Source: a virus
Strand: one strand, 5' to 3'
Length of the DNA stretch: 22,990 bases
Virus record (IMG/VR): IMGVR_UViG_3300025127_000296
Span: 1 to 22,990 of that record
The notes under the pieces are model-generated. The model was not told the DNA's origin. It saw only the letters and a list, made by a program, of their open reading frames with translations, and made no database searches. A program made the translations under genes and the position numbers. Positions 1 to 17,937 of the stretch are shown piece by piece. The first letter of the stretch is position 1. The number at the start of each line of letters is the position of its first letter.

Positions 1-33
1 TAACAGATCCCATATTTCATCAGTAAGTTTCAT
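1..33 (-). CDS. Start of an unidentified gene, cut by the window edge
   Basis: An ATG at 33-31 opens a frame that runs off the left edge after 11 codons (MKLTDEIWDLL). The ATG overlaps the TAA stop of the preceding gene by one base (TAATG), the same junction used at least six other times in this window. That makes this a credible start rather than chance. Too little is visible to suggest a function. Confidence 0.6.
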   Translation of the reverse strand, partial: MKLTDEIWDLL

Positions 34-839
34 TAGCTTACCATGTCATATATTCTTTTTAACTGATCTTGTTGGTTATAAAAATATTTAGCTCCTTTTT
101 TTCTCATATCTTTAAAATCTTTTGGATTAGCTCCGCTCATAATACCAGCACCCAACACTGCATCAGCTCTACTTACAAATTCTCCATCCGCTAATTGCGC
201 AAGCATAGTATCTTTATCTTTATCTGCCATATCTGTTGCGTCTTCTATATATCCTGCTGCTCTAACATAATTACTTACATCTTTTTCATCGTGATCAAGT
301 TTACTTGGTAAATATTGTACATCTCCACCCTCTCTATATTTAGGTAAAGCATCAACTATACCACCTTGTGAAAAAGCATAAACTTGATTAGGTTGTTGGT
401 AATTATATAAATTTTGAAACTGTCTATCTCCTCCTGTTACTGTGTCATAATTAAACCTATCTCCTAAACCTTTTACTTGTTCTTGCCCTTTAGCATACTC
501 ATCTGCATACATTTGATCACTAAATGGCATTTTAAAACCCTCTGGTTTTTGTGCACTTGGTGTCATAAGTGGTGCTGCAACTGCGGCTGCTCCTGCAAGT
601 TTAGCTTTACCTGCTGACAAACCTAACGTGCTAGCTAAACCTTGACCAGCTGTATAACTAGATGTGCCTGCACCTCCAGCTGCACCCAACATTCCAGGTG
701 CTGCCATTCCTGCACCTGCTCCAAGTGCTGCACCTAAAAACATATTCTTTATCATATCTCGATTAGAGCCACCTGATGCTTTTGTGTATAAGCCTCCTAT
801 ACCTGCTCCTATTGCCATTGCTAAAACTGGAAATGCCAT
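33..839 (-). CDS. Gly/Ala-rich putative virion protein with C-terminal 'DGEFVSRADAVLGAG' motif
   Basis: A 268-residue protein of unknown function. Residues 1-92 are rich in Gly and Ala with hydrophobic stretches (MAFPVLAMAIGAGIGG; AALGAGAGMAAPGMLGAAGG), so they could insert in or cross a membrane. The middle (95-160) is polar and Tyr/Gln-rich. Residues 158-172 carry two Gly-Gly elements (SQGGIV and REGGDV), and residues 215-232 read LADGEFVSRADAVLGAG. Similar GEFV..AD.V..LG motifs occur in many phage virion proteins, including tail and injection proteins. A good Shine-Dalgarno (AAGGAG) precedes the ATG. Its place after the tail and modification genes would suit an internal virion or ejection protein, but this is inference and no enzymatic domain is visible. 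Confidence 0.75.
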   Translation of the reverse strand: MAFPVLAMAIGAGIGGLYTKASGGSNRDMIKNMFLGAALGAGAGMAAPGMLGAAGGAGTSSYTAGQGLASTLGLSAGKAKLAGAAAVAAPLMTPSAQKPEGFKMPFSDQMYADEYAKGQEQVKGLGDRFNYDTVTGGDRQFQNLYNYQQPNQVYAFSQGGIVDALPKYREGGDVQYLPSKLDHDEKDVSNYVRAAGYIEDATDMADKDKDTMLAQLADGEFVSRADAVLGAGIMSGANPKDFKDMRKKGAKYFYNQQDQLKRIYDMVS

Positions 840-868: not shown

Positions 869-1651
869 TTAACTCTTTTTATCGAGCTTATCAATACCTA
901 CAGGTATCATTTCATCTATTAGTCTTCCTGTATACTGATATTCTCCTACATGAGTTATATATTCTGTTATCAAAGCATAACATTTACCACCAATATCACG
1001 CCATAATTTAGAAAAAGCGAAGTCTTCTCCATAATATCTTTTATGTTTCTCGTCATAATGAGTGTCAAAAAAGTTATACAAGTTAGGTTTTATTGTCATC
1101 TTTCCATCTACCATACTTTCCTGATGTATAATTTTGTTAGGGTAAGCTTTTATAAGTTTGTCAAACACTTCTCTTTTTAACAAAAGACAGCCAGTTGGAG
1201 CATAATTTAACTCAATCATCTCATTAGTAAATGAAACATTATCTTCATTATCTTTTATCTTAACAGGAAATTTATTACCACTTGTATGTTTTTGTAATTT
1301 TGTCATACTAGATATATCGTAATTTTTTTCAAATACCTTATCCCAATTAATTAATTTCATGGGGTAAGGTATACTACATACCTCAACATCTTTATCTATC
1401 ATTTTAAAAATAGAATTAGGATAAAATAATATGTCACTGTCTATAAACAAAAGATGCGTACAATCGTCAGATAAAAAGTGAGACACTAATGTGTTTCTAC
1501 CTTGTGTTACCAAAGAACTTTTCATCATGTCTATAGTAATGTAAATACTTTTAGATAAACACTCAGCTTGAAACTTCAACATAGATTGCATGTAATGTAT
1601 GGATACATCACTATGGACTGGTGTTGCTACAAATAATTTAATTTCTTTCAT
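869..1651 (-). CDS. GT-A-type glycosyltransferase-like protein
   Basis: A 260-residue protein with features of a nucleotide-sugar-dependent glycosyltransferase of the GT-A fold. After an N-terminal strand (IKLFVATPVHSDV), residues 51-75 contain GRNTLV and then LLFIDSDI. The DSD at 71-73 matches the metal-binding DxD motif. Residues 207-222 (YGEDFAFSKLWRDIGG) resemble the acceptor/catalytic segment 'sED..F..rw...G' of family 2-like enzymes, followed by H234. The start overlaps the stop of the preceding glycosyltransferase by 14 bases, and AAGGTG lies six bases upstream. The pair is therefore probably translationally coupled. No signal peptide or membrane segment is seen, so it should act in the cytoplasm. 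Donor and acceptor cannot be read from sequence. Confidence 0.8.
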   Translation of the reverse strand: MKEIKLFVATPVHSDVSIHYMQSMLKFQAECLSKSIYITIDMMKSSLVTQGRNTLVSHFLSDDCTHLLFIDSDILFYPNSIFKMIDKDVEVCSIPYPMKLINWDKVFEKNYDISSMTKLQKHTSGNKFPVKIKDNEDNVSFTNEMIELNYAPTGCLLLKREVFDKLIKAYPNKIIHQESMVDGKMTIKPNLYNFFDTHYDEKHKRYYGEDFAFSKLWRDIGGKCYALITEYITHVGEYQYTGRLIDEMIPVGIDKLDKKS

Positions 1652-2567
1652 TCAATGCACCTTGTAAAAAATTTGTCCATTCTATCTTTTTCTTATCCCA
1701 ACTATAAAATTTTTTTACAAAGTTTTGTTGCATTTGTAGATGTTCAAATATCTCTGGCTCGTGTATCGTGTTTACTGCTTGACGTATCGCAGATGCAAAC
1801 TTACTAGCAAGTCTCTTAGTATCTTTTTCATAGGTCACGTATACAGGAAACTCAGAACAAGTTTCATACAAAGCACCAAAGTTTGTAACTATACAAAATA
1901 ATCCAGCAGCCATTGATTCAAGAGCTGCATTACAACTTGTCTCCTCCCATATACTAGGGTATGCAAACATATGATAGCGATAAATATATTTTTGTATAAA
2001 CGAATGTTCTTTGTATCCTATGTAAGTAACATTTTCTAATTTTCTTGCTTGTTCATACAATGGTTCATATTGACTGTCGTTTGCTTTTTCAAATTCCTCT
2101 CCGTATATTTTACAACTACTAAACACATCTACATGCACGTTACAGTCTTTTAATAAACTCATAGCTCCAAGTAAAACATTAAGACCTCTCCACGGAGTTA
2201 CGTGAAAAAGCATACGAACCATATCACCATGTTTAAAAGGTGTAATTTTAGGAAAATTGTTTACACCATTTTTTATCACATGACATTTGTTAGTAGGTAT
2301 ATCAAATCTATATCTATACTTTTCATAATTCCAATGACTGTTAAAAACATACCAATCAAATTTATCGTGATTACTTTTATCTTCAAACCACGGATATATA
2401 TTAGGTTGATTGTGACTATTTTTTTGCCAAAGTATATTTATTTTATCTTTGCTTAATTCTACTTTACCTGGTATTGATGTGCATATTTGAAAATTGTCTA
2501 ATAAATTATCATCAACATAGTGTGATAGAAAACGATGTTGTATTTCAGTTCCACCTGAAGGAATCAC
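1638..2567 (-). CDS. GT4-like (GT-B fold) glycosyltransferase, GTG start
   Basis: A 309-residue GT-B glycosyltransferase. The N-terminus starts directly at a glycine-rich loop (PSGGTEIQ, residues 3-10). The C-terminal Rossmann domain has the retaining GT4 signature: E209 and E217 in EETSCNAALESMAAG form the EX7E motif that contacts the sugar nucleotide, and VTPWRG at 123-128 begins the second domain. At 309 residues it is short for the family, and the first beta-strand seems trimmed. Upstream in frame there is only ATT before a TAA, so the GTG at 2567 is the only normal start. It overlaps the SET gene stop (GTGA), with GGAG eight bases upstream. The substrate is unknown. Its partner glycosyltransferase follows with a 14-base overlap. 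Confidence 0.88.
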   Translation of the reverse strand: MIPSGGTEIQHRFLSHYVDDNLLDNFQICTSIPGKVELSKDKINILWQKNSHNQPNIYPWFEDKSNHDKFDWYVFNSHWNYEKYRYRFDIPTNKCHVIKNGVNNFPKITPFKHGDMVRMLFHVTPWRGLNVLLGAMSLLKDCNVHVDVFSSCKIYGEEFEKANDSQYEPLYEQARKLENVTYIGYKEHSFIQKYIYRYHMFAYPSIWEETSCNAALESMAAGLFCIVTNFGALYETCSEFPVYVTYEKDTKRLASKFASAIRQAVNTIHEPEIFEHLQMQQNFVKKFYSWDKKKIEWTNFLQGALNERN

Positions 2568-2881
2568 GAGCCATACTCCAATAACAACTCTTTACCTTTT
2601 TTTATTTTTTTAATCGTTATAACTTTATATACAACATAATCATCCCAGTCTAAATCAATAAACAAACGACAGTTTGGTTCGTCACTATGGTTTAAAAAAC
2701 CTCCCATCGGAGTTCTAACATATCCGTGTATTATTGGTATTTTTATATGACTCATACCTAAATCATACTTTCTAGGCAAATCAAATTTTGCAAAGACACC
2801 ATGTCCATGAGTGTTACTTACACCTATCATTAATTCTTCTGGTAAAGGATTATAATAAAACCTGTCGTATTTAATTTTCAT
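2564..2881 (-). CDS. Minimal SET-domain protein (putative lysine methyltransferase)
   Basis: A 105-residue protein that is almost entirely a SET domain. The GxG region is HGHGVFAKFDLP (25-36). The core motif GGFLNHSDEPNC (60-71) matches the NHSxxPN S-adenosylmethionine-binding signature. The C-terminus KGKELLLEYGS (95-105) matches the 'kGeEl...Yg' end, with Y103 in the place of the catalytic tyrosine. No pre-SET or post-SET cysteines are present. The size is close to the stand-alone viral SET protein of chlorella virus. By family, it should transfer a methyl group to a lysine side chain of a protein. It overlaps the preceding gene by 11 bases and the GT4 gene by four (GTGA). The target (virion, host or DNA-binding protein) is unknown. 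SET domains are uncommon in phages, but the motif match is strong. Confidence 0.85.
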   Translation of the reverse strand: MKIKYDRFYYNPLPEELMIGVSNTHGHGVFAKFDLPRKYDLGMSHIKIPIIHGYVRTPMGGFLNHSDEPNCRLFIDLDWDDYVVYKVITIKKIKKGKELLLEYGS

Positions 2882-3071
2882 CTTTGGTTTTACTTATCAT
2901 AGACAAAGCTTCTTTTGGCACTATAATATTTACATCGCACACTATATCCTCTTGTTTGGTATCTGTATTTGGATTGTCTACGTCATGTTGAGCATCTTCT
3001 TTAGAGGCATATCTTAAGTTAGTCTTTTTATTTCTGTAAGTTTCTTGTGAGGTGCATTGTATTGTTTTCAT
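2871..3071 (-). CDS. Small hypothetical protein
   Basis: A 66-residue polar, acidic protein with no family I recognise (begins MKTIQCTSQETYRNKKTNLR). It is cytoplasmic by appearance, with two widely spaced cysteines and no membrane segment. Its last 11 bases overlap the start of the SET gene. The overlap implies co-translation and suggests a role tied to the modification genes, but nothing in the protein itself supports that. The ribosome binding site is weak (AGGAT well upstream of the ATG). A 38-base AT-rich gap separates it from the oxygenase gene, with no hairpin visible there. Confidence 0.65.
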   Translation of the reverse strand: MKTIQCTSQETYRNKKTNLRYASKEDAQHDVDNPNTDTKQEDIVCDVNIIVPKEALSMISKTKDEN

Positions 3072-3109
3072 AAAAACAATATCCTATAAATACTAGAAAA
3101 AATCAAGTA

Positions 3110-3679
3110 TTAACTAAACCAACAAACTATGCTGTATCTAGTGCCAGATAAAATAGGTTGTACAGAATGAGGGTACATAAAATTACTAGGAAACATAACT
3201 AAATCTCCTGTTTTTAATTCTACTTTACTGTATGCAAACTGCCTATCGTTAGGATAATAAAAAATCAATTCTCCACCTTTATAATCTTCGTTTAAATTAA
3301 TTATAAAAGAAAGTTGTCTATTTTCTTGATGGAAAGAGTCAGTATGTTTTTTATAAAAATTACCTGTTTTATATTTTAATAAATTTATTGATTCTAGTTT
3401 TAACTCTTGATGTAAACTTGTAAATATCTTTTGATAATTTGTAATAGCTTTACTACAGGTCTTAAATATTAATTTTTGATATAGAACATCATGTTCGTTA
3501 TTAAGGTTTAAAGGAACAGTATAAACATTTCTATGTTTAGTATCTACGTAATCACCATCATTTTTTAACATCGTAGCTTTAATACTAGGACTTACCTCTA
3601 TATGATCACACAGGTTTTTACAAACTTTTTTATCTAAAGCTTGATCTACTTTAAAAATAGCAGAACTGATTTTATCCAT
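3110..3679 (-). CDS. 2-oxoglutarate/Fe(II)-dependent oxygenase, prolyl 4-hydroxylase-like
   Basis: A 189-residue protein with a double-stranded beta-helix oxygenase core. The iron ligands read as H112 and D114 in KHTDSF, with H171 in PHSVQPI. R181 in SGTRYS sits ten residues after the second His, where these enzymes bind 2-oxoglutarate. GGELIFYY (135-142) and LKTGDLVMFPS (155-165) are typical core strands. The family uses O2 and 2-oxoglutarate to hydroxylate proteins (Pro, Lys, Asn), small molecules or, in other branches, bases. The HxD...H...R pattern is complete, so activity is plausible. The ATG overlaps the preceding gene by eight bases (ATGGATAA). Similar enzymes are frequent in marine phages, mostly without known substrates. 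Here it sits upstream of SET and glycosyltransferase genes. Confidence 0.9.
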   Translation of the reverse strand: MDKISSAIFKVDQALDKKVCKNLCDHIEVSPSIKATMLKNDGDYVDTKHRNVYTVPLNLNNEHDVLYQKLIFKTCSKAITNYQKIFTSLHQELKLESINLLKYKTGNFYKKHTDSFHQENRQLSFIINLNEDYKGGELIFYYPNDRQFAYSKVELKTGDLVMFPSNFMYPHSVQPILSGTRYSIVCWFS

Positions 3680-4022
3680 TCTCTTGAGAACGATCTATTA
3701 AAGCATAACTTATTAAGCCTTGTATTTTACTACTTCCTGTAGCAGCTTGTACAGTTATAGCATCACCAGCCTCTAAATTTAAACCTTGAGGTGTAGCGTT
3801 TACTTGTGATTTAGCTGGCACGTCATCTCTAAAAAATTCATACTCCGTGCTAGAATCAGATGAATCAACAAAATTCATATTAACTAAAATAGCTGATGAC
3901 GCATCATTATTAGCGCAATAAATACTTTTAACTATAACTGTTCCATTAGTAGGACATGTAAATACTGTAGTTTTACTTGTATCAGTTTGTTTAAAACCTT
4001 GGTTTTTATATTGTATTGTCAT
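3672..4022 (-). CDS. Small beta-rich putative structural protein
   Basis: A 116-residue protein predicted by eye to be mainly beta-strand (TTVFTCPTNGTVIVKSIYCA; GDAITVQAATGSSKIQGLI). The order 'turn it on, add a ligand or offset, avoid zero' is not seen, and I recognise no enzyme motif. Small beta-sandwich proteins of this kind, with an 'EAGDAITVQA' type segment, are common accessory virion or fibre proteins in marine phages. Position between the tail genes and the oxygenase fits that idea. The start overlaps the 54-codon gene upstream (ATGA), and the end overlaps the oxygenase by eight bases. Function is unassigned. Confidence 0.7.
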   Translation of the reverse strand: MTIQYKNQGFKQTDTSKTTVFTCPTNGTVIVKSIYCANNDASSAILVNMNFVDSSDSSTEYEFFRDDVPAKSQVNATPQGLNLEAGDAITVQAATGSSKIQGLISYALIDRSQENG

Positions 4023-4183
4023 GATAAAAAATATTCAAAAGCTTGTTGTTCATTTTTAATTTCTTGTTGATAACTAAAATTTAATTTTTGTATAATTTGA
4101 GTTAAGGCTAAATTAATTAATCTTTGGTTTTCAATATTATATTCTTCTTTTGGTTCTGGAATAAATGTATTAATTTTAGCCAA
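4019..4183 (-). CDS. 54-residue hypothetical protein with TTG start
   Basis: Found by reading the apparent gap between two genes. A TTG at 4183-4181 opens a 54-codon frame that ends in TGA at 4021-4019. It begins (M)AKINTFIPEPKEEYNIENQ and continues as a likely helix rich in Gln, Asn, Ile and Leu. AGGA lies six bases before the TTG. The start overlaps the preceding stop by eight bases, and the TGA overlaps the following ATG (ATGA). These junctions copy the style of the neighbouring genes, and the frame fills the gap exactly, so I take it as real. No function can be assigned. Confidence 0.68.
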   Translation of the reverse strand: MAKINTFIPEPKEEYNIENQRLINLALTQIIQKLNFSYQQEIKNEQQAFEYFLS

Positions 4184-4469
4184 TTTGTTTCCTTTTTTTT
4201 AATGCTACTTTACCAGCTTTTGCTATTCTTACTACTTCCGTTTTACCCATAACTTTCGCACGTTGTTCCATAACAGTCAATATTTGTATTTTTCTAGCAT
4301 AAGGTTTTGAAATCTTTTTTACTTTTGCAACAGTTGCTCTTGCATCAGCTGGTGTCGCAAATTTAATACGTACTGTATCCTTAGGGTTTTCGTCTGTATA
4401 CAATCTACGACCACTACCCTTTGGTTTTTTACCTGTTCCTTTTAATGGATCTTTTGTTTTTCTTACCAT
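4176..4469 (-). CDS. Small basic protein with 'GSGRRLYTDENPKDTV' motif
   Basis: A 97-residue, strongly basic protein. Residues 10-36 hold a conserved-looking block (KGTGKKPKGSGRRLYTDENP, then KDTVRIKFATPADA) that I recall from marine phage proteins of unknown function. A helical, Lys/Arg-rich tail with ARKIQILTVMEQRAKVMGK follows. The charge suggests contact with DNA, RNA or an acidic virion surface. The start has AGGAAG just upstream, and it overlaps the 3' end of the 107-residue gene by 41 bases, the longest overlap here. No catalytic motif is visible. Confidence 0.75.
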   Translation of the reverse strand: MVRKTKDPLKGTGKKPKGSGRRLYTDENPKDTVRIKFATPADARATVAKVKKISKPYARKIQILTVMEQRAKVMGKTEVVRIAKAGKVALKKRKQIG

Positions 4470-11146: not shown

Positions 11147-12229
11147 TTATGCCGCTGTTGTTATCTTAGTCCAGGTAACTGGTGTCCCAGTATCTACTCT
11201 GTTCCATGCTATTATTATTACACTTCCAACATTACTCGTCAATACTACTCCAGTAACATCATCTACTATTCCAGTACCCGTTACCTCTGCTGGAGTGCCA
11301 ACTGCACTTGTTGCTGCTACTCCCGTTACATCATATCCTGAAACTGGTGTTATAGAACCAACTGCACTTGTTGCTGCTACACCTGTAACATTAGTAACTC
11401 CGGTAATTAATAAAGTAACATCTCCAACTGAAGTAGTTGCCGCTACACCTGTAACATCTACTAATGTTATTGGAGCAACTATTGATGTACCCACAGCTGA
11501 TGTCATTGCTACACCTGTTGTTCCTGTTGTAGCGTCACCATCAAAATCTACTGTACCTACAGAACCTGTAAGACCTAAACCAGTAGGAGTAATCTCAACA
11601 CCTTGTGTAGTAGTAACACTACCAACAGCTGATGTTGTAGACACGCCTGACACAGCGACAGTTTCAGATACAGTTGGTGTAACTGTTCCCACAGCAGAGG
11701 TCATACTTACGCCTGTTGGTATAACAGAATAAGCGCCTCCCCAAACTCTGTTACCCCATGTTCCTCGACCCCAACCTTCACCTATTTCTGCATCAATCGT
11801 TACAGATCCCACAGCTGAAGTAGATGATACTCCAGTAACCGATATGGATGTATCATTTTGATCACCCCATGCTCCATCACCCCAGGCTAATAAACCCCAG
11901 GTTGTAGCTAACTCCGTATTGATTTGACCACCCATATTTGAATGGTATTGACAATAATAATATAATGTAGGAGCAGAATCTGCTACTTGAATAGTAGTGA
12001 GATAATTTACATCGTCTTTTGTTACACCAGTAGTGTATTCACTACCACCACTGTGTGTACCATCAGAGGTAGTAGAAAATCTTAATGGATGACTTGTTGC
12101 AGCTGACCAGTTAAATACATATGTGCCACCTTCAGCTAATGTTAGTGTGGCTTGTTGTACTCCGTCAATAAAATATTTATTATTACCACTAACATTTACT
12201 ACTGTGACTGTAAAAGTTCTAGTAGTCAC
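11147..12229 (-). CDS. Cupredoxin-domain virion protein with nine TGV..TSAVG repeats
   Basis: A 360-residue protein in two parts. Residues about 1-104 resemble a cupredoxin: YVFNWSAATSHPLRF supplies H47, and YYYCQYHSNMGG supplies C93, H96 and M99. These form a His-Cys-His-Met set in the spacing expected for a type 1 copper site. Residues 105-170 hold two Trp/Gly-rich segments (LLAWGDGAWGDQND; GWGRGTWGNRVWGGAY). From residue 132 to 337 there are nine copies of a TGV-x-x-TSAVG-x-V unit, beta-forming and alanine/valine rich. Similar N-terminal domains occur in marine phage structural proteins. Whether copper is bound, or the fold only serves as a scaffold, cannot be told. The position in the fibre module suggests a surface-exposed tail or decoration role. 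Confidence 0.75.
   Translation of the reverse strand: MTTRTFTVTVVNVSGNNKYFIDGVQQATLTLAEGGTYVFNWSAATSHPLRFSTTSDGTHSGGSEYTTGVTKDDVNYLTTIQVADSAPTLYYYCQYHSNMGGQINTELATTWGLLAWGDGAWGDQNDTSISVTGVSSTSAVGSVTIDAEIGEGWGRGTWGNRVWGGAYSVIPTGVSMTSAVGTVTPTVSETVAVSGVSTTSAVGSVTTTQGVEITPTGLGLTGSVGTVDFDGDATTGTTGVAMTSAVGTSIVAPITLVDVTGVAATTSVGDVTLLITGVTNVTGVAATSAVGSITPVSGYDVTGVAATSAVGTPAEVTGTGIVDDVTGVVLTSNVGSVIIIAWNRVDTGTPVTWTKITTAA
11219..11836 (-). repeat. Nine degenerate coding repeats (TGV-x-x-TSAVG)
   Basis: Nine units begin with [TS]G[VL] and reach [ST]xVG[STD] within ten residues. Examples are TGVSSTSAVGSV, TGVSMTSAVGTV, TGVAATTSVGDV, two copies of TGVAATSAVG and a divergent last copy, TGVVLTSNVGSV. Spacing between copies varies from about 17 to 40 residues. 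The middle copies are most alike at the DNA level, which suggests recent duplication or recombination. Confidence 0.85.
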
Positions 12230-13727: not shown

Positions 13728-14416
13728 TATGCACCTTGTGGAAAGAAAGATTGAGGAGCAATATAAACAGAAGTTCTTTGTCCGTCTTCAGTTAGTGCTC
13801 TATTTAATTCATCTTCGTATAATAATTTATTTTGTTGCACTAATTGTGGACTTCTTTTCATAGATAAATAATATGCAAGACCTGCAACCATACAGGGTAT
13901 AAATCTAAATACTACATCTGCCTGATTAGTATATGCACCAGCATCTTCAATTCTTTTTAAATAATAATATTTGACACATGTATAAGTAGAAGCATCAGGA
14001 GTTTGATACAAAGTTATTTTTGGAGTAGTTTGTCTGTCAATATAATATTGACTTGGTTGTCCTGTTGAACCTTTATTAGGTAAAGCAGCATATTCGCTTC
14101 TACTAATTTTTGTTAAAGATACGTCATTAGTATTAGCAGTTTGTGTTGTAGTTGTAGAAATGTAAGCCTCTAAAATATCGTTTGCATTAGCAGGAGCGTC
14201 ATATGTAGCTGTACCTGCTGTTAAAACTTGTGCTTTTAACTCTACTTTCCATAAATGCACACCTCTGTTTCCCCATTCAGAAAAAAGTATATTTAAGCTT
14301 CTTCTTGCAGATTTTAAGTCGTAGCCAGAGTTAGTTCTTACACCACATCTTTCATAAGCCTCTTGTATAATATCATCTATATTTAAATCAAAAGTAGTTG
14401 TCCCTGATGTAGCCAT
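13727..14416 (-). CDS. Head-tail connector / tail-tubular-A-like protein
   Basis: A 229-residue protein. The N-terminus (FDLNIDDIIQEAYERCGVRT, then GYDLKSARRSLNILFSEWGN) and RGVHLWKVEL are the hallmarks of a common connector protein of marine podoviruses, comparable in role to tail tubular protein A or gp4-like adaptors. The middle is beta-rich and holds ISRSEYAALPNKGSTGQPSQ. The C-terminal helix pair (FIPCMVAGLAYYLSMKR, LLYEDELNRALTEDGQR) completes the family pattern. It should form part of the ring between portal and tail nozzle. One-base overlaps (TAATG type) link it to both neighbours, pointing to coupled translation and near-equal amounts. Confidence 0.8.
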   Translation of the reverse strand: MATSGTTTFDLNIDDIIQEAYERCGVRTNSGYDLKSARRSLNILFSEWGNRGVHLWKVELKAQVLTAGTATYDAPANANDILEAYISTTTTQTANTNDVSLTKISRSEYAALPNKGSTGQPSQYYIDRQTTPKITLYQTPDASTYTCVKYYYLKRIEDAGAYTNQADVVFRFIPCMVAGLAYYLSMKRSPQLVQQNKLLYEDELNRALTEDGQRTSVYIAPQSFFPQGA

Positions 14417-15039
14417 TACTTAACACCTGTAAATTTTATTCCACGAATTGCAGCTCTACCACCTCGTGCTATACCACCTTCAGAAAAAGTAAGTGTGAGT
14501 GAACCTTTTATTCCTTTTGTTTTTGACCTATTCATAGGATTACTAGATGTGCTATCGTAAGCTTCTATACCAAAACTACCTCTATCTCCAAAGTTTTTTT
14601 GAGCAGTAAAACTTTTAGTTCTTCTTTTACTTTCTCCTCTCGGAGAGGAATATTTTTGTTGAGCCACTTGTCCTATTACATCAACTCCTAATATTTTTTT
14701 ACCGACAGTAACTTTACTGCCCTTTTTTGTTACTCCTGTATCACTTTTTTCTTTGAAAACTTCTGGTTTAACTATTGTTTTTCTTTTTGGTAAAATTATT
14801 CTACTTTCAGGCATACCGCCTTCGTTTAATAATTGAGTAAAACCACTTGGATCTCTTTCTAAAGATTGTTTTCTTCTATACTCCTGCATCATTTTATTTA
14901 TTTTTTTTTGTTTAGGAGTTAACTTTGGTAAAGGATTAGCTTTACGCATTTTATCATACGAAAAATCTTGAAATCCCTTTGGAAACACAGGAGAAACCAT
15001 TATACCTTTTCTTTTAAATTTTCTTATAGGTTTAGGCAT
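14416..15039 (-). CDS. Basic protein with Gly-Gly motifs
   Basis: A 207-residue, Lys/Arg-rich protein without a recognised domain. Features are an N-terminal MPKPIRKFKRKGIM, a helix with TPKQKKINKMMQEYRRKQSL, LNEGGMPESRI in the first half and a C-terminus SEGGIARGGRAAIRGIKFTG. The last block, Gly-Gly followed by ARG..AxRG..F, is a tail I associate with many small marine phage proteins. Charge suggests an internal virion protein or a DNA-contacting protein. One-base overlaps connect it with the connector gene and with the next basic protein. A 15-base palindrome lies within it at 14635-14649. Confidence 0.65.
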   Translation of the reverse strand: MPKPIRKFKRKGIMVSPVFPKGFQDFSYDKMRKANPLPKLTPKQKKINKMMQEYRRKQSLERDPSGFTQLLNEGGMPESRIILPKRKTIVKPEVFKEKSDTGVTKKGSKVTVGKKILGVDVIGQVAQQKYSSPRGESKRRTKSFTAQKNFGDRGSFGIEAYDSTSSNPMNRSKTKGIKGSLTLTFSEGGIARGGRAAIRGIKFTGVK

Positions 15040-15974
15040 TAGGTTTTAGAAATACTTTTTGGATCTTTACCAGGTCTCATTGCAGCTCTACCAAAACCAT
15101 TAGCAACACCACCACCTGACATATAACCCATCTTGTTTCTTACAGGTTTAGGTAGTTTTCTTAAACCTTTACCTTTTTTACCAGCTGGAACAGGTTTTAA
15201 ATTACCCATACCACCTGATTTTAAACCCATATATAAATCTGAACCACCAGCAGCTATATTACTACCTATTCCTAGTTTCTTTCTTACTGCTTCTTTATCA
15301 ACTTTTTTCTTAGCTTTAGTTGTTTTGCTACCAACAGCAGTTTTCCCTTGCTGTTTATTTAAATATTGTCTTAAAGTAAGACCTGATTTTGCTAGTTCCT
15401 CTTTTGTTACAGCAGCAAGTTTTTTTCCTTTTTTATTAATAAAAGTTTTAGATCCTCTTTTTTTAGCTTCAGCTATAGTTCTAGGTTCTCCTGTAAAAAC
15501 AGTTCCTGTGGCGATATTCTTTTTTGTAGCAAAATCTGAATATCTTTGTGTTTTTCCATTAACTTTTTTAATCTGACCTTTTTTTCTAGCTTCAGCTTCT
15601 TTTTCTTTTACAGATTTTCTTACTCTTATTTTACCTGTAATCGTATCAGCACTACCTTTGCCTATTTGTCCTTTTGGCTTTTCGCCAGATGCTAAGAATG
15701 CTTTAAATTTTTCTAATATACCACCATCAGATTTTTTAAATGGTTGTGCTCCAAATTTTGGACCTTTTGGTTTTGGATAACCTTTAGTTCCTAATTTATA
15801 TTCTGTATCACCCATTTTTACAGCAGCTTTGTATCTTTTTTTCTCTGCTGGTGTGACTTCTTGCTCATACAAAAAATCTTCATGTTGTCCAGCTCTGCCT
15901 TTTTTTCTTAAATTCTTAATTCTTTTTTTCTTCATTTTTTCTAGTTCTTCTAAAGGTATTCTCTCTATGCCCAT
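15039..15974 (-). CDS. Lys-rich basic protein with Gly-Gly motifs
   Basis: A 311-residue, very Lys-rich protein. A conserved-looking core reads SKTFINKKGKKLAAVTKEEL followed by AKSGLTLRQYLNKQQGK (about residues 175-210), a block I recall from marine phage proteins near tail genes. Gly-Gly elements occur as KSDGGILEKF, GLKSGGMGNLK and MSGGGVANGFGRAA near the C-terminus. Most of the rest is low-complexity basic sequence. No enzyme signature is visible. Candidate roles are packing with DNA in the head, an ejected internal protein or a structural linker. Base composition is skewed to A on the coding strand because of the lysine codons. Confidence 0.65.
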   Translation of the reverse strand: MGIERIPLEELEKMKKKRIKNLRKKGRAGQHEDFLYEQEVTPAEKKRYKAAVKMGDTEYKLGTKGYPKPKGPKFGAQPFKKSDGGILEKFKAFLASGEKPKGQIGKGSADTITGKIRVRKSVKEKEAEARKKGQIKKVNGKTQRYSDFATKKNIATGTVFTGEPRTIAEAKKRGSKTFINKKGKKLAAVTKEELAKSGLTLRQYLNKQQGKTAVGSKTTKAKKKVDKEAVRKKLGIGSNIAAGGSDLYMGLKSGGMGNLKPVPAGKKGKGLRKLPKPVRNKMGYMSGGGVANGFGRAAMRPGKDPKSISKT

Positions 15975-15983
15975 TTTATTCTC

Positions 15984-16265
15984 CTAAGTTATGTCTATCA
16001 TACCACCATAGTATTTCTTTGTAAACGTGCTCACGTTCGTTGGTTTACCACCAACTCCTTGAGCTTTAGCTCTTTTTCTTTTAACTGCACTTTTTCTTTG
16101 ACCCTCGGACATTCTTCTAGCTTTTGCTAAAGGAACACATTTAGGGTACTTTCTTTTTGCATCTGCTTTTTGTTTACTTCTACCACATGGTGCAAATGAA
16201 CCATCAGCTCTTTTACTTCCAATATCAACCCATTTTTGCTTGAACCATTTGTCTAAACCAGACAT
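15984..16265 (-). CDS. Small basic protein, DUF5872-like
   Basis: A 93-residue basic protein. The order LDKWFKQKWVDI, then PCGR, then YPKCVPLAKARRMSEGQRK and a Lys/Arg/Ala-rich end is the layout of the DUF5872 family as I remember it ('W-x-x-W-V-D-I ... P-C-G-R ... Y-P-K-C'). Two cysteines at the expected places could bind metal or pair. It ends in KKYYGGMIDIT, another Gly-Gly-Met element. Function is unknown for the family. It overlaps the neighbouring gene by one base at its start and lies ten bases before the next gene. Confidence 0.7.
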   Translation of the reverse strand: MSGLDKWFKQKWVDIGSKRADGSFAPCGRSKQKADAKRKYPKCVPLAKARRMSEGQRKSAVKRKRAKAQGVGGKPTNVSTFTKKYYGGMIDIT

Positions 16266-16999
16266 TAATCCAATAAATCCTTATAATACTCTTGAGCAGA
16301 TGGATTAGTAAAACCCTCATCTCCGTCAATATCTTGTTTGATATAAGATCCTGTTGCTGTAGGTACCATACCACCCATACTCATATTAGTTGTATTAGGT
16401 TTATTTTGTGAAGCTAAAAAGTTTTGGTATTGTTGATTTTGCATCATACCTTCTTCAGCTTGTTGTCTTCCTTTCTTTTTACCTTCTTTTTTCATCTGGT
16501 TCATTAACATCATAAGACCAAAACCTGCTTTTTGTACTTTCATACCACCTTTTCTAGCACCCATTTTATTTTTTAACACCGTATTTACTGCTTGTTTACC
16601 AAACTCTTCTACATTACCAGTGTTAGTTTGATTTGTACCTTGACCTGTAACAGGATCAACTGCACCTTTGTTTGGTGCAACTGTACCACTTTTCTTTCTG
16701 TTCATAGACATGTATTTAGCCATACCTGCTAAACCAAATATAGGTAATAGCATTCCTTTGCCTGCTTTATATACTTTCATTGATCCACCTTTTTTTGCTT
16801 TTCTAATTCTTCTTGCAGCAGCACCTGTGCCACCTCCACCAGATGGTTTAGGTCCTTTAAAATCTTTTCTTCTTACACCTTTGTCATCTTTTGCCTTACC
16901 TGCACATATTTTTGAAGCATACGCATTAGCATATGCACTGGGATAAACCTTAAATTTTCTTTTAGCAGCTGCTTTACCTCTTGGACATAATTTTGTCAT
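16265..16999 (-). CDS. Basic protein with 'CPRGKAAAKRKFKVYPSAYANAY' signature and internal duplication
   Basis: A 244-residue protein. The first 34 residues (LCPRGKAAAKRKFKVYPSAY, then ANAYASKICAG) form a compact signature seen in many phages: K-x-x-P-S-x-Y-A-N-x-Y-A-S-K. Residues 70-103 and 150-176 are related to each other, KKGGSMKVYKAGKG plus a hydrophobic helix and RKGGMKVQKAGFG plus a Met-rich helix. This shows an internal duplication. A further MSMGGMV lies at 207-211, and the end is acidic (DIDGDEGF, EYYKDLLD). The hydrophobic segments (LLPIFGLAGMAKYM, FGLMMLMNQM) could touch membrane. AAGGAGGT gives a very strong ribosome binding site. Role unknown. A virion or ejection function is a guess. 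Confidence 0.72.
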   Translation of the reverse strand: MTKLCPRGKAAAKRKFKVYPSAYANAYASKICAGKAKDDKGVRRKDFKGPKPSGGGGTGAAARRIRKAKKGGSMKVYKAGKGMLLPIFGLAGMAKYMSMNRKKSGTVAPNKGAVDPVTGQGTNQTNTGNVEEFGKQAVNTVLKNKMGARKGGMKVQKAGFGLMMLMNQMKKEGKKKGRQQAEEGMMQNQQYQNFLASQNKPNTTNMSMGGMVPTATGSYIKQDIDGDEGFTNPSAQEYYKDLLD

Positions 17000-17002
17000 A
17001 AG

Positions 17003-17010
17003 ACCTCCTT
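17003..17010 (-). promoter_or_regulatory. Strong ribosome binding site (AAGGAGGT)
   Basis: AAGGAGGT on the minus strand lies three bases before the ATG of the 244-residue basic protein (core GGAGG about five bases away). It follows a 36-base AT-rich leader after the 43-codon gene, the only spacer in this part of the cluster. Confidence 0.7.
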
Positions 17011-17035
17011 ATATAATAATAAATTAATAACAGCA

Positions 17036-17167
17036 TCATGTAAATAACCTGCTCTTAGATTTGTTTTTATTACCTGACACAACTCTTACTCTTTTCTTTT
17101 TTAAAAATTTTCTTTTTTGAGGACCTTTAGTTATTTGTTGCCTCATACTACCTCTACCTATTGCCAT
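17036..17167 (-). CDS. 43-residue basic protein
   Basis: Found by reading the gap before the 244-residue gene. An ATG at 17167-17165 opens 43 codons to a TGA at 17038-17036. The protein starts MAIGRGSMRQQITKGPQKRK and goes on with FLKKKRVRVVSGNKNKSKSR, so nearly half the residues are Lys, Arg or Gln. It overlaps the stop of the M15 peptidase gene as TAATG, the same junction used elsewhere in this block. 'MGRGSMR.QI..G' small proteins appear in other marine phages in my memory, but no function is known. It fits the set of basic proteins around it. Confidence 0.75.
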   Translation of the reverse strand: MAIGRGSMRQQITKGPQKRKFLKKKRVRVVSGNKNKSKSRLFT

Positions 17168-17628
17168 TATCTTAACCTATACCTTGTCTGACCCTCTTTA
17201 TTTTTATAAGCTTCTTTATATTCATATCTATTTTCATCAGTGTTATAAGATACATGCACCCAACCAGAGTGAGGATCTTTTTCTGGATTGTGAAACTCTA
17301 ATATTAATTGATCATACTTTAAATTAGTATGTATCCAATCACTTAGTTCTAAGTTACTTACTTCTAAAACTTCGATGTCCGCCGCTTGACCCTGCACATG
17401 CTGCGACTTAATACTTCCGCCAATCTTCAAATTAAGTTCTGCACACCTAAACCCAGAACTAACAATCATAGGCTTCATAAAATAATCTCTTACTGGCTGT
17501 AACACACTTACACATAAATTACGTAAGTTAAATATCTGTTTGTCGTTTGGAGTGTTATCTATATTATGTCTAGTAGCTGTTTGTGATCTTGTAAATTCAT
17601 GTAAGCTAAAATTATCTGATAATTTCAT
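17167..17628 (-). CDS. M15-family zinc peptidase (endolysin or virion-associated)
   Basis: A 153-residue peptidoglycan peptidase of the M15 type (Peptidase_M15_3). The N-terminus (LSDNFSLHEFTRSQTA) is the usual start. The zinc site reads H77 and D84 in SQHVQGQAADIEV and H125 in SGWVHVSY, with SSGFRCAELN (57-66) just before. The length is right for a stand-alone domain. By family it cleaves D-Ala or L-Ala/D-Glu bonds in cell-wall stem peptides. There is no signal peptide, so release would need a holin. The holin-like gene is about 5 kb away, and this gene sits among basic virion-type genes. It could be the lysis enzyme or a virion-borne wall-opening enzyme. The ATG directly follows the preceding stop. 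Confidence 0.85.
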   Translation of the reverse strand: MKLSDNFSLHEFTRSQTATRHNIDNTPNDKQIFNLRNLCVSVLQPVRDYFMKPMIVSSGFRCAELNLKIGGSIKSQHVQGQAADIEVLEVSNLELSDWIHTNLKYDQLILEFHNPEKDPHSGWVHVSYNTDENRYEYKEAYKNKEGQTRYRLR

Positions 17629-17937
17629 TTAACACTTCCATCTACGTCTTGCTTGACGCAATCTTGAATTAGGATCTTTTGCAGCTTTAGGAAATTTTTT
17701 CATCTGTCCTGCACTTCTAGCGCAAAATGATTTACGTCTTTTTGCAGCTTTACTTCCTGGTTTTACTTTACCTGTAACAGCAGTTTGTAGTTTAGATCCA
17801 GGGTTTTTTCTTCTATAAGCAGCAACACCTGCTTTGGTCATACCTGCACCAGATTTAGTAGGTCTAAAGTTTTGCTTATTTCGGGGAGGCATGCCTCCCC
17901 TTTTTAAACCAATAAGGTCTGCTGTGTAATTATCCAT
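17629..17937 (-). CDS. Highly basic small protein, DUF6321-like
   Basis: A 102-residue, Lys/Arg-rich protein. From about residue 26 on it follows a conserved marine phage pattern: PTKSGAGMTKAGVAAYRRKN, then PGSKLQTAVTGKVKPGSKAA, KRRKSFCARSAGQMKKFP and SRLRQARRRWKC at the end. I believe this is the DUF6321 family, of unknown function. The first 15 residues (MDNYTADLIGLKRGG) look like an extension, since many relatives in my memory begin near MPPRN. The ATG at 17892 would restore that start, but the GGAGG before it is only one base away. The gene overlaps the previous one by eight bases. An 18-base perfect palindrome encodes RGGMPPR. Confidence 0.78.
   Translation of the reverse strand: MDNYTADLIGLKRGGMPPRNKQNFRPTKSGAGMTKAGVAAYRRKNPGSKLQTAVTGKVKPGSKAAKRRKSFCARSAGQMKKFPKAAKDPNSRLRQARRRWKC
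17883..17905 (+). terminator. Perfect GC palindrome plus T5: terminator-like on the plus strand
   Basis: GGGGAGGCATGCCTCCCC at 17883-17900 is an 18-base perfect inverted repeat in an AT-rich genome, directly followed on the plus strand by TTTTT. Folded with a CATG loop it gives a seven-base-pair GC-rich stem and a U tract, the form of an intrinsic terminator, but pointing against the genes. On the minus (coding) strand the hairpin is followed by GAAATAAG, not a U tract. Confidence 0.45.

Follow-up and report, generated by a model that had tools for sequence, protein, structure and literature searches.

The stretch of DNA analysed here (the window) comprises positions 1 to 22,990 of the IMG/VR virus record IMGVR_UViG_3300025127_000296. 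It represents part of the late genes of a pelagiphage of the HTVC023P type, with a major capsid gene 77% identical to that of Pelagibacter phage HTVC023P. All its main genes lie on the minus strand: the capsid gene comes first, followed by the genes for Lys-rich proteins, those of the tail and fibres and, finally, a putative modification block at positions 869-3679 (Table 1). The block consists of five densely packed genes, i.e. a 2-oxoglutarate (2OG)-Fe(II) oxygenase (OXY), a small protein (o66), a SET-domain protein (SET) and two glycosyltransferases (GTs), GT4 and GT-A. Upstream of it lie o116 and a virion structural protein of 723 aa (TAIL723), and downstream of it p33.

The enzymes of the block

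An earlier reading made from the sequence alone had described five tightly spaced or overlapping genes on one strand, and all the open reading frames (ORFs) are found as described. Neighbouring genes overlap by 11 nt (o66/SET), 4 nt (SET/GT4) and 14 nt (GT4/GT-A), the GTG start of GT4 overlapping the stop of SET. Chance ORFs can be excluded because the five are conserved over tens of independent marine contigs, which confirms them as real genes. The four enzymes named in that reading are likewise real by family or fold, with catalytic residues invariant in 26-34 relatives.

OXY belongs to PF13640 (E=5e-20, 72.6 bits against a cut-off of 27), and both its iron triad (H112, D114 and H171) and its 2-oxoglutarate arginine (R181) are invariant in 34 sequences. 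The nearest proteins by sequence profile are EGLN1, P3H1 and PKHD-type hydroxylases; OXY thus resembles prolyl and not lysyl hydroxylases, and a prolyl-type activity is predicted. The family phrog_3531, which is named ferrochelatase, matches the window OXY at 3e-23. The "ferrochelatase" of cyanophage KJ019098.1 (L351:667-1752) has a 2OG-FeII_Oxy_3 match (7e-17) and no ferrochelatase domain, and HTVC023P gp67 (L002:3340-3960), annotated in the same way, has no Pfam match. The ferrochelatase-oxygenase partnership published in PMC9599517 may, judging from these matches, rest on misannotation.

SET is a member of PF00856 (E=3e-8, 34.5 bits against a cut-off of 22.4) in which N64 and H65 of the NHS motif and the catalytic Y103 are invariant in 26 sequences. 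Its nearest relatives by sequence profile are the MLL/KMT2 proteins, with PBCV-1 vSET ranking lower. In the comparison of structures, which the earlier reading had suggested, the model (pLDDT 86.6) has a canonical SET fold and matches both vSET (TM-score 0.70) and MLL1.

GT4 is assigned to PF00534 (Glycos_transf_1, E=5e-12, 46 bits against a cut-off of 26.4); E209 and E217 of the EX7E motif are invariant in 29 sequences and its homologue in HTVC023P, gp77, is 56% identical. GT-A matches phrog_1574, a family without an assigned function (E=7e-33), and falls below the curated cut-off of Pfam Anp1 (GT62; 26.6 against 28.8 bits), so that it is not counted as an Anp1 member. D71-S-D73 and E209-D210 are invariant in 32 sequences, and the Foldseek matches of the AlphaFold2 model (pLDDT 79.6) include GT-A enzymes, i.e. 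the protein has a GT-A fold with a DXD motif. Several of the fold neighbours are virus- or protein-glycosylating, namely STIV A197, COLGALT1, LH3, Mimivirus R699 and the PBCV-1 major-capsid glycosyltransferase (TM-scores of 0.31-0.46 on the query). Since these scores are low and sugar-nucleotide pyrophosphorylases occur among the same matches, the models give the fold and only weak hints of the function. Sequence-profile searches of the PDB gave no match for either glycosyltransferase, and no hydrophobic or membrane segment was found in GT4 or GT-A. On a Pelagibacteraceae chromosome (L121:5989-6747) there is a homologue that shares 43% identity with the phage GT-A, which suggests host-phage exchange.

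Table 1. Genes of the modification block and neighbouring features in the window
Feature	Position	Strand	Remarks
GT-A fold glycosyltransferase (phrog_1574)	869..1651	-	260 aa; DSD metal motif and ED motif; adjoins GT4 in 77/77 loci
GT4-type (GT-B) retaining glycosyltransferase	1638..2567	-	309 aa; GTG start; EX7E E209/E217
Minimal SET-domain lysine methyltransferase (predicted)	2564..2881	-	105 aa; NHS and catalytic Tyr; accessory
o66, small protein without known family	2871..3071	-	66 aa; nearly core, 75/80 loci
2OG-Fe(II) oxygenase (OXY), prolyl-hydroxylase (EGLN/PKHD) type	3110..3679	-	189 aa; HxD...H...R; accessory
o116, putative virion protein, Ser/Thr-rich (22%)	3672..4022	-	marks the upstream side of the module
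o97, small basic protein rich in Lys (21% K), candidate substrate of SET	4176..4469	-	tree-corrected association with SET not significant
TAIL723, virion structural protein (phrog_3287), 723 aa	4756..6927	-	conserved upstream neighbour of the module
p33, Gly/Ala-rich, probable internal virion protein	33..839	-	after GT-A in 65/66 close loci

Core and accessory genes in related loci

Related loci were collected in two sets, one of 84 distinct loci that contain a homologue of GT4, where the count for each gene covers the loci with enough sequence, and one of 78 more divergent loci gathered with a broader GT-A profile. In the first set GT-A directly follows GT4 in all 77 scorable loci, and p33 comes next in 65 of 66. 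The second set gives the same picture: GT4 adjoins GT-A in 75/76 loci, and TAIL723 or o116 lies upstream in 71/71, a neighbourhood that is kept even at 44-54% GT-A identity. The earlier remark that the block follows the tail genes, i.e. its late, virion-related location, therefore holds well beyond the window. The small gene o66 between OXY and SET, which had not been singled out before, is nearly core as well (75 of 80 loci), its position being nearly as conserved as that of the GT pair; it could encode an accessory subunit or a small virion protein.

The distribution of the other two enzymes is different. Among 80 loci of the first set 31 have both SET and OXY, 14 only OXY, 2 only SET and 33 neither, and the 78 divergent loci contain OXY in only 7 cases and SET in only 1. 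In the cultured phages HTVC023P (gp77, gp78) and HTVC027P (gp80, gp81) the GT pair is present, SET is absent and the module slot contains no OXY, although both phages encode 2OG oxygenases elsewhere near the tail genes. The sequence-only reading had treated the four enzymes as one cassette to be sought side by side in other phages. This is strictly so for the two glycosyltransferases, but the full set accompanies the pair in only 31/80 loci and the pair stands alone in 33/80. Because the pair is near-universal while SET and OXY come and go, GT4 and GT-A are the core unit, with OXY and SET as plug-ins that sit between o116 and this pair.

SET was also followed outside this group. A broad profile scan confirmed at least 555 stretches as related, and the best 80 of them were retained; 57 non-redundant SET loci were selected independently of GT genes. 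None of the 57, which lie outside the HTVC023P-type GT group, has GT4- or GT-A-type genes near SET. A small Lys-rich protein adjoins SET in 10 of them, against 5.5 expected at random (P=0.024). An OXY homologue adjoins it in 6 loci, where 1.1 would be expected, and these 6 probably represent one lineage. In two loci (L029 and L030) SET lies about 110 nt upstream of homologues of the window proteins o97, 16265-16999 (DUF5872-like), 15984-16265 and 17629-17937 (DUF6321). The window itself encodes several Lys-rich proteins (15-21% K) at 14416-17937 and 4176-4469, one of them DUF6321, which are related to those around SET elsewhere. In another marine phage lineage the SET gene directly adjoins a window-type 2OG oxygenase without glycosyltransferases (L302, L312, L314, L316, L318, L322).

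The pairwise divergence of the genes was compared as well. OXY correlates better with fibre/tail genes (r=0.69 for o212 and 0.45 for the 723-aa protein) than with GT-A (0.30), and GT-A correlates with GT4 (0.54), o66 (0.47) and SET (0.40); given small samples and pairs that are not independent, these values are exploratory only. The pattern would fit an oxygenase acting on tail proteins and a GT pair acting on something else. Among the structural genes none tracks GT-A beyond linkage, so this approach singled out no acceptor for the GT pair.

Possible targets of the modification block

We favour, with about even confidence, a late virion-decoration locus in which the acceptor of the fixed GT pair is a virion protein and the targets of the optional OXY and SET are tail-linked and Lys-rich proteins. 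GT4 and GT-A, encoded between tail and internal-virion genes, would be soluble cytoplasmic enzymes that, before virion assembly or in its course, act sequentially, or build a short glycan, on Ser/Thr residues of an abundant virion protein. The most likely target of hydroxylation by OXY would be a residue in a protein of the tail or fibres, and SET would most likely methylate lysines of small Lys-rich phage proteins (o97, 15984-16265, 17629-17937 and similar ones). The genes are presumed to be expressed late, and the benefit might be masking from the host surface or from defence, or the stability of the particle. The arguments for a virion target are the position of the genes, the absence of a thymidylate synthase (TS)-type base-hydroxymethylase in 22 records, the weak fold hints and the alphaproteobacterial chromosomal relatives of GT-A, which have a flagellin gene within 0.15-1.2 kb in 7 of 70 bacterial loci. 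The protein-modification idea of the sequence-only reading is retained to this extent, as a protein target is the best inference for GT-A, SET and OXY; its single joint pathway is not, the GT pair being near-universal irrespective of the other two enzymes, which come and go.

Several other observations touch on acceptors. The GT-A homologues beside flagellin genes (L126, L127, L157, L166, L172, L178, L186) are candidate flagellin glycosyltransferases, and Ser/Thr-rich neighbours of the bacterial GT-A homologues, considered as general acceptors, showed no enrichment by count. Synechococcus phage ACG-2014f has a GT-A homologue near tail-collar genes, together with a second glycosyltransferase and a nucleotide-sugar epimerase. 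In the window, a 360-aa protein with many Thr/Ser/Val-rich repeats (11147-12229, 29% S+T) is a possible acceptor of O-glycosylation. A role in defence was considered and dropped, as PADLOC yielded nothing beyond a match to a generic 2OG model and another that is spurious.

Four results weigh against virion decoration. The flagellin-adjacent loci stand for only about three lineages, with a P value that ranges from 0.01 to 0.18 according to the flagellin density assumed, and the enrichment is therefore no more than suggestive. The raw association of SET and o97 in GT-carrying phages is strong (19/2/1/9, non-redundant; P=2.5e-5), but it is largely phylogenetic and cannot be separated from shared ancestry. 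Among exopolysaccharide and lipopolysaccharide (LPS) glycosyltransferase models GT4 finds its best match, albeit a weak one that is far below the cut-offs. Finally, distant GT-A homologues (24-29% identity) of the phiM12 group lie between gp46/gp47 and the sliding clamp. As to the second point, o97 is not considered a proven substrate of SET, given that the association is lost in a tree-aware concerted-change count (1/7, P=0.31); the proposal now leans on the Lys-rich adjacency in other phages, and small Lys-rich phage proteins are candidate substrates with moderate strength.

The weak match of GT4 suits a different explanation, namely that during infection the target of the GT pair is a glycan of the host surface (LPS or exopolysaccharide), whose modification would prevent superinfection or adsorption to debris; in this case OXY and SET would be unrelated accessories. 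The glycosyltransferases of pelagimyophages are cited as LPS-modifying in PMC9599517, and the 43%-identical homologue on the Pelagibacteraceae chromosome fits in as well. However, no lipid-carrier, flippase or O-antigen gene was recognised in the block, neither glycosyltransferase has a membrane segment, and the pair is fixed between virion genes in all relatives, so that we consider a surface target unlikely. The phiM12-type homologues in turn point to the phage DNA, which the pair might glycosylate as a shield against host nucleases. In phiM12, Cr30, DLP_6 and OC (T4-like phages) the GT-A homologue is part of the replication cluster, and each has a GT4 homologue far away from it, with glutaredoxin as the neighbour of GT4 in several; moreover, some HTVC023P-type clades have thymidine-hypermodification genes (PMC9599517). 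Against this, the DNA-type genes of the HTVC023P group are located near the polymerase (PMC9599517) and the GT pair in the virion block, and OXY is prolyl-hydroxylase-like, not of the TET/JBP type. A search with PF00303 (the TS/hydroxymethylase family) found no protein in 22 HTVC023P-type records with the GT pair, two of them complete cultured genomes, and was positive in Cr30, phiM12 and nine control genomes. PF12851 (Tet_JBP) was also negative in the 22 records, but no control responded either, and PF18723 was silent everywhere, controls included, and thus uninformative. As to the possibility raised in the sequence-only reading that the enzymes would cluster with DNA-base pathways, the missing TS-type hydroxymethylase speaks against it and the phiM12 group for it; on balance we regard DNA as a rather improbable target.

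One ordered pathway had been proposed for the whole block, in which OXY makes the hydroxyl that the glycosyltransferases then glycosylate, as in collagen or Mimivirus L230, while SET methylates the same protein. The genes are indeed adjacent with overlaps, collagen hydroxylysine glycosyltransferases are among the fold matches of GT-A, and L230 both hydroxylates and glucosylates lysine (PMC9614988). On the other hand, the TM-scores to the collagen enzymes are only about 0.40-0.46, OXY is like prolyl and not lysyl hydroxylases, and its divergence tracks tail genes rather than GT-A. The patterns of presence and absence led us to reject this very improbable scheme: the GT pair occurs without SET or OXY at 33/80 loci, the 78 divergent loci have only 7 OXY and 1 SET, and the 57 SET loci are without these glycosyltransferases.

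Returning to virion decoration, HTVC023P-type phages, whose hosts are the most abundant bacteria of the ocean, nearly always carry the GT pair among their particle genes and probably decorate their own particle proteins. If this holds, glycosylation of phage virions would be known not just from mycobacteriophages but also from the dominant phages of the ocean, and the SET family would gain a candidate class of substrates, the small Lys-rich phage proteins. A bolder version, which we put forward as doubtful, would be a dedicated virion modification locus in the most abundant known marine phages, where the GT pair glycosylates a structural protein and the plug-ins hydroxylate tail proteins and SET-methylate histone-like Lys-rich proteins; SET and its substrate would then be the first such pair encoded by a phage, and the modifications of the virion would form a combinatorial code.

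Comparison with known systems

The statement of the sequence-only reading that no such phage system had been described was too strong. Three glycosyltransferases and eight 2OG-Fe(II) oxygenases are already listed for HTVC023P-type phages (PMC9599517), i.e. the same phage group, even though the main text of that paper is without SET, the core GT4-GT-A pair or the accessory slot. A SET-domain gene is mentioned in a Stenotrophomonas phage (PMC9025141). We found neither this SET family nor the accessory slot described in the literature, nor a GT4-GT-A pair with a fixed place between the tail genes and those of internal virion proteins.

It is instructive to compare the module with systems that are better understood. 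Glycosylation of virions by phage-encoded glycosyltransferases is known in the mycobacteriophages Che8 and Rita (Freeman 2023, as cited in PMC11256854 and PMC12619734). As described there, Che8-like phages have two or more such enzymes, which resembles the pelagiphage module, and the glycans are on the capsid and tail tube. The mycobacteriophage genes are placed near the 3' genome end, in contrast to the pelagiphage pair inside the tail/internal-virion block with its optional oxygenase and SET. Mimivirus L230 (PMC9614988) is similar in as much as a virus-encoded activity hydroxylates and glycosylates a viral protein, but it is a single protein acting on collagen repeats, whereas the window has separate, separable genes and a prolyl-type oxygenase; no collagen-like protein was noticed in the window, where no systematic search was made. 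PBCV-1 vSET (1n3j/3kma), a histone H3K27 methyltransferase, shares with the window SET the fold (TM-score 0.70), the size (about 105-119 aa) and the NHS motif and Tyr; the two differ in sequence (19% identity), and the pelagiphage host is without histones; Lys-rich phage proteins are candidate targets. By description, the module is also similar to the O-glycosylation of flagellin by FlmG in Alphaproteobacteria (PMC7591256), where a soluble cytoplasmic glycosyltransferase acts on a filament protein, and the relatives of GT-A that adjoin flagellin genes are part of this likeness.

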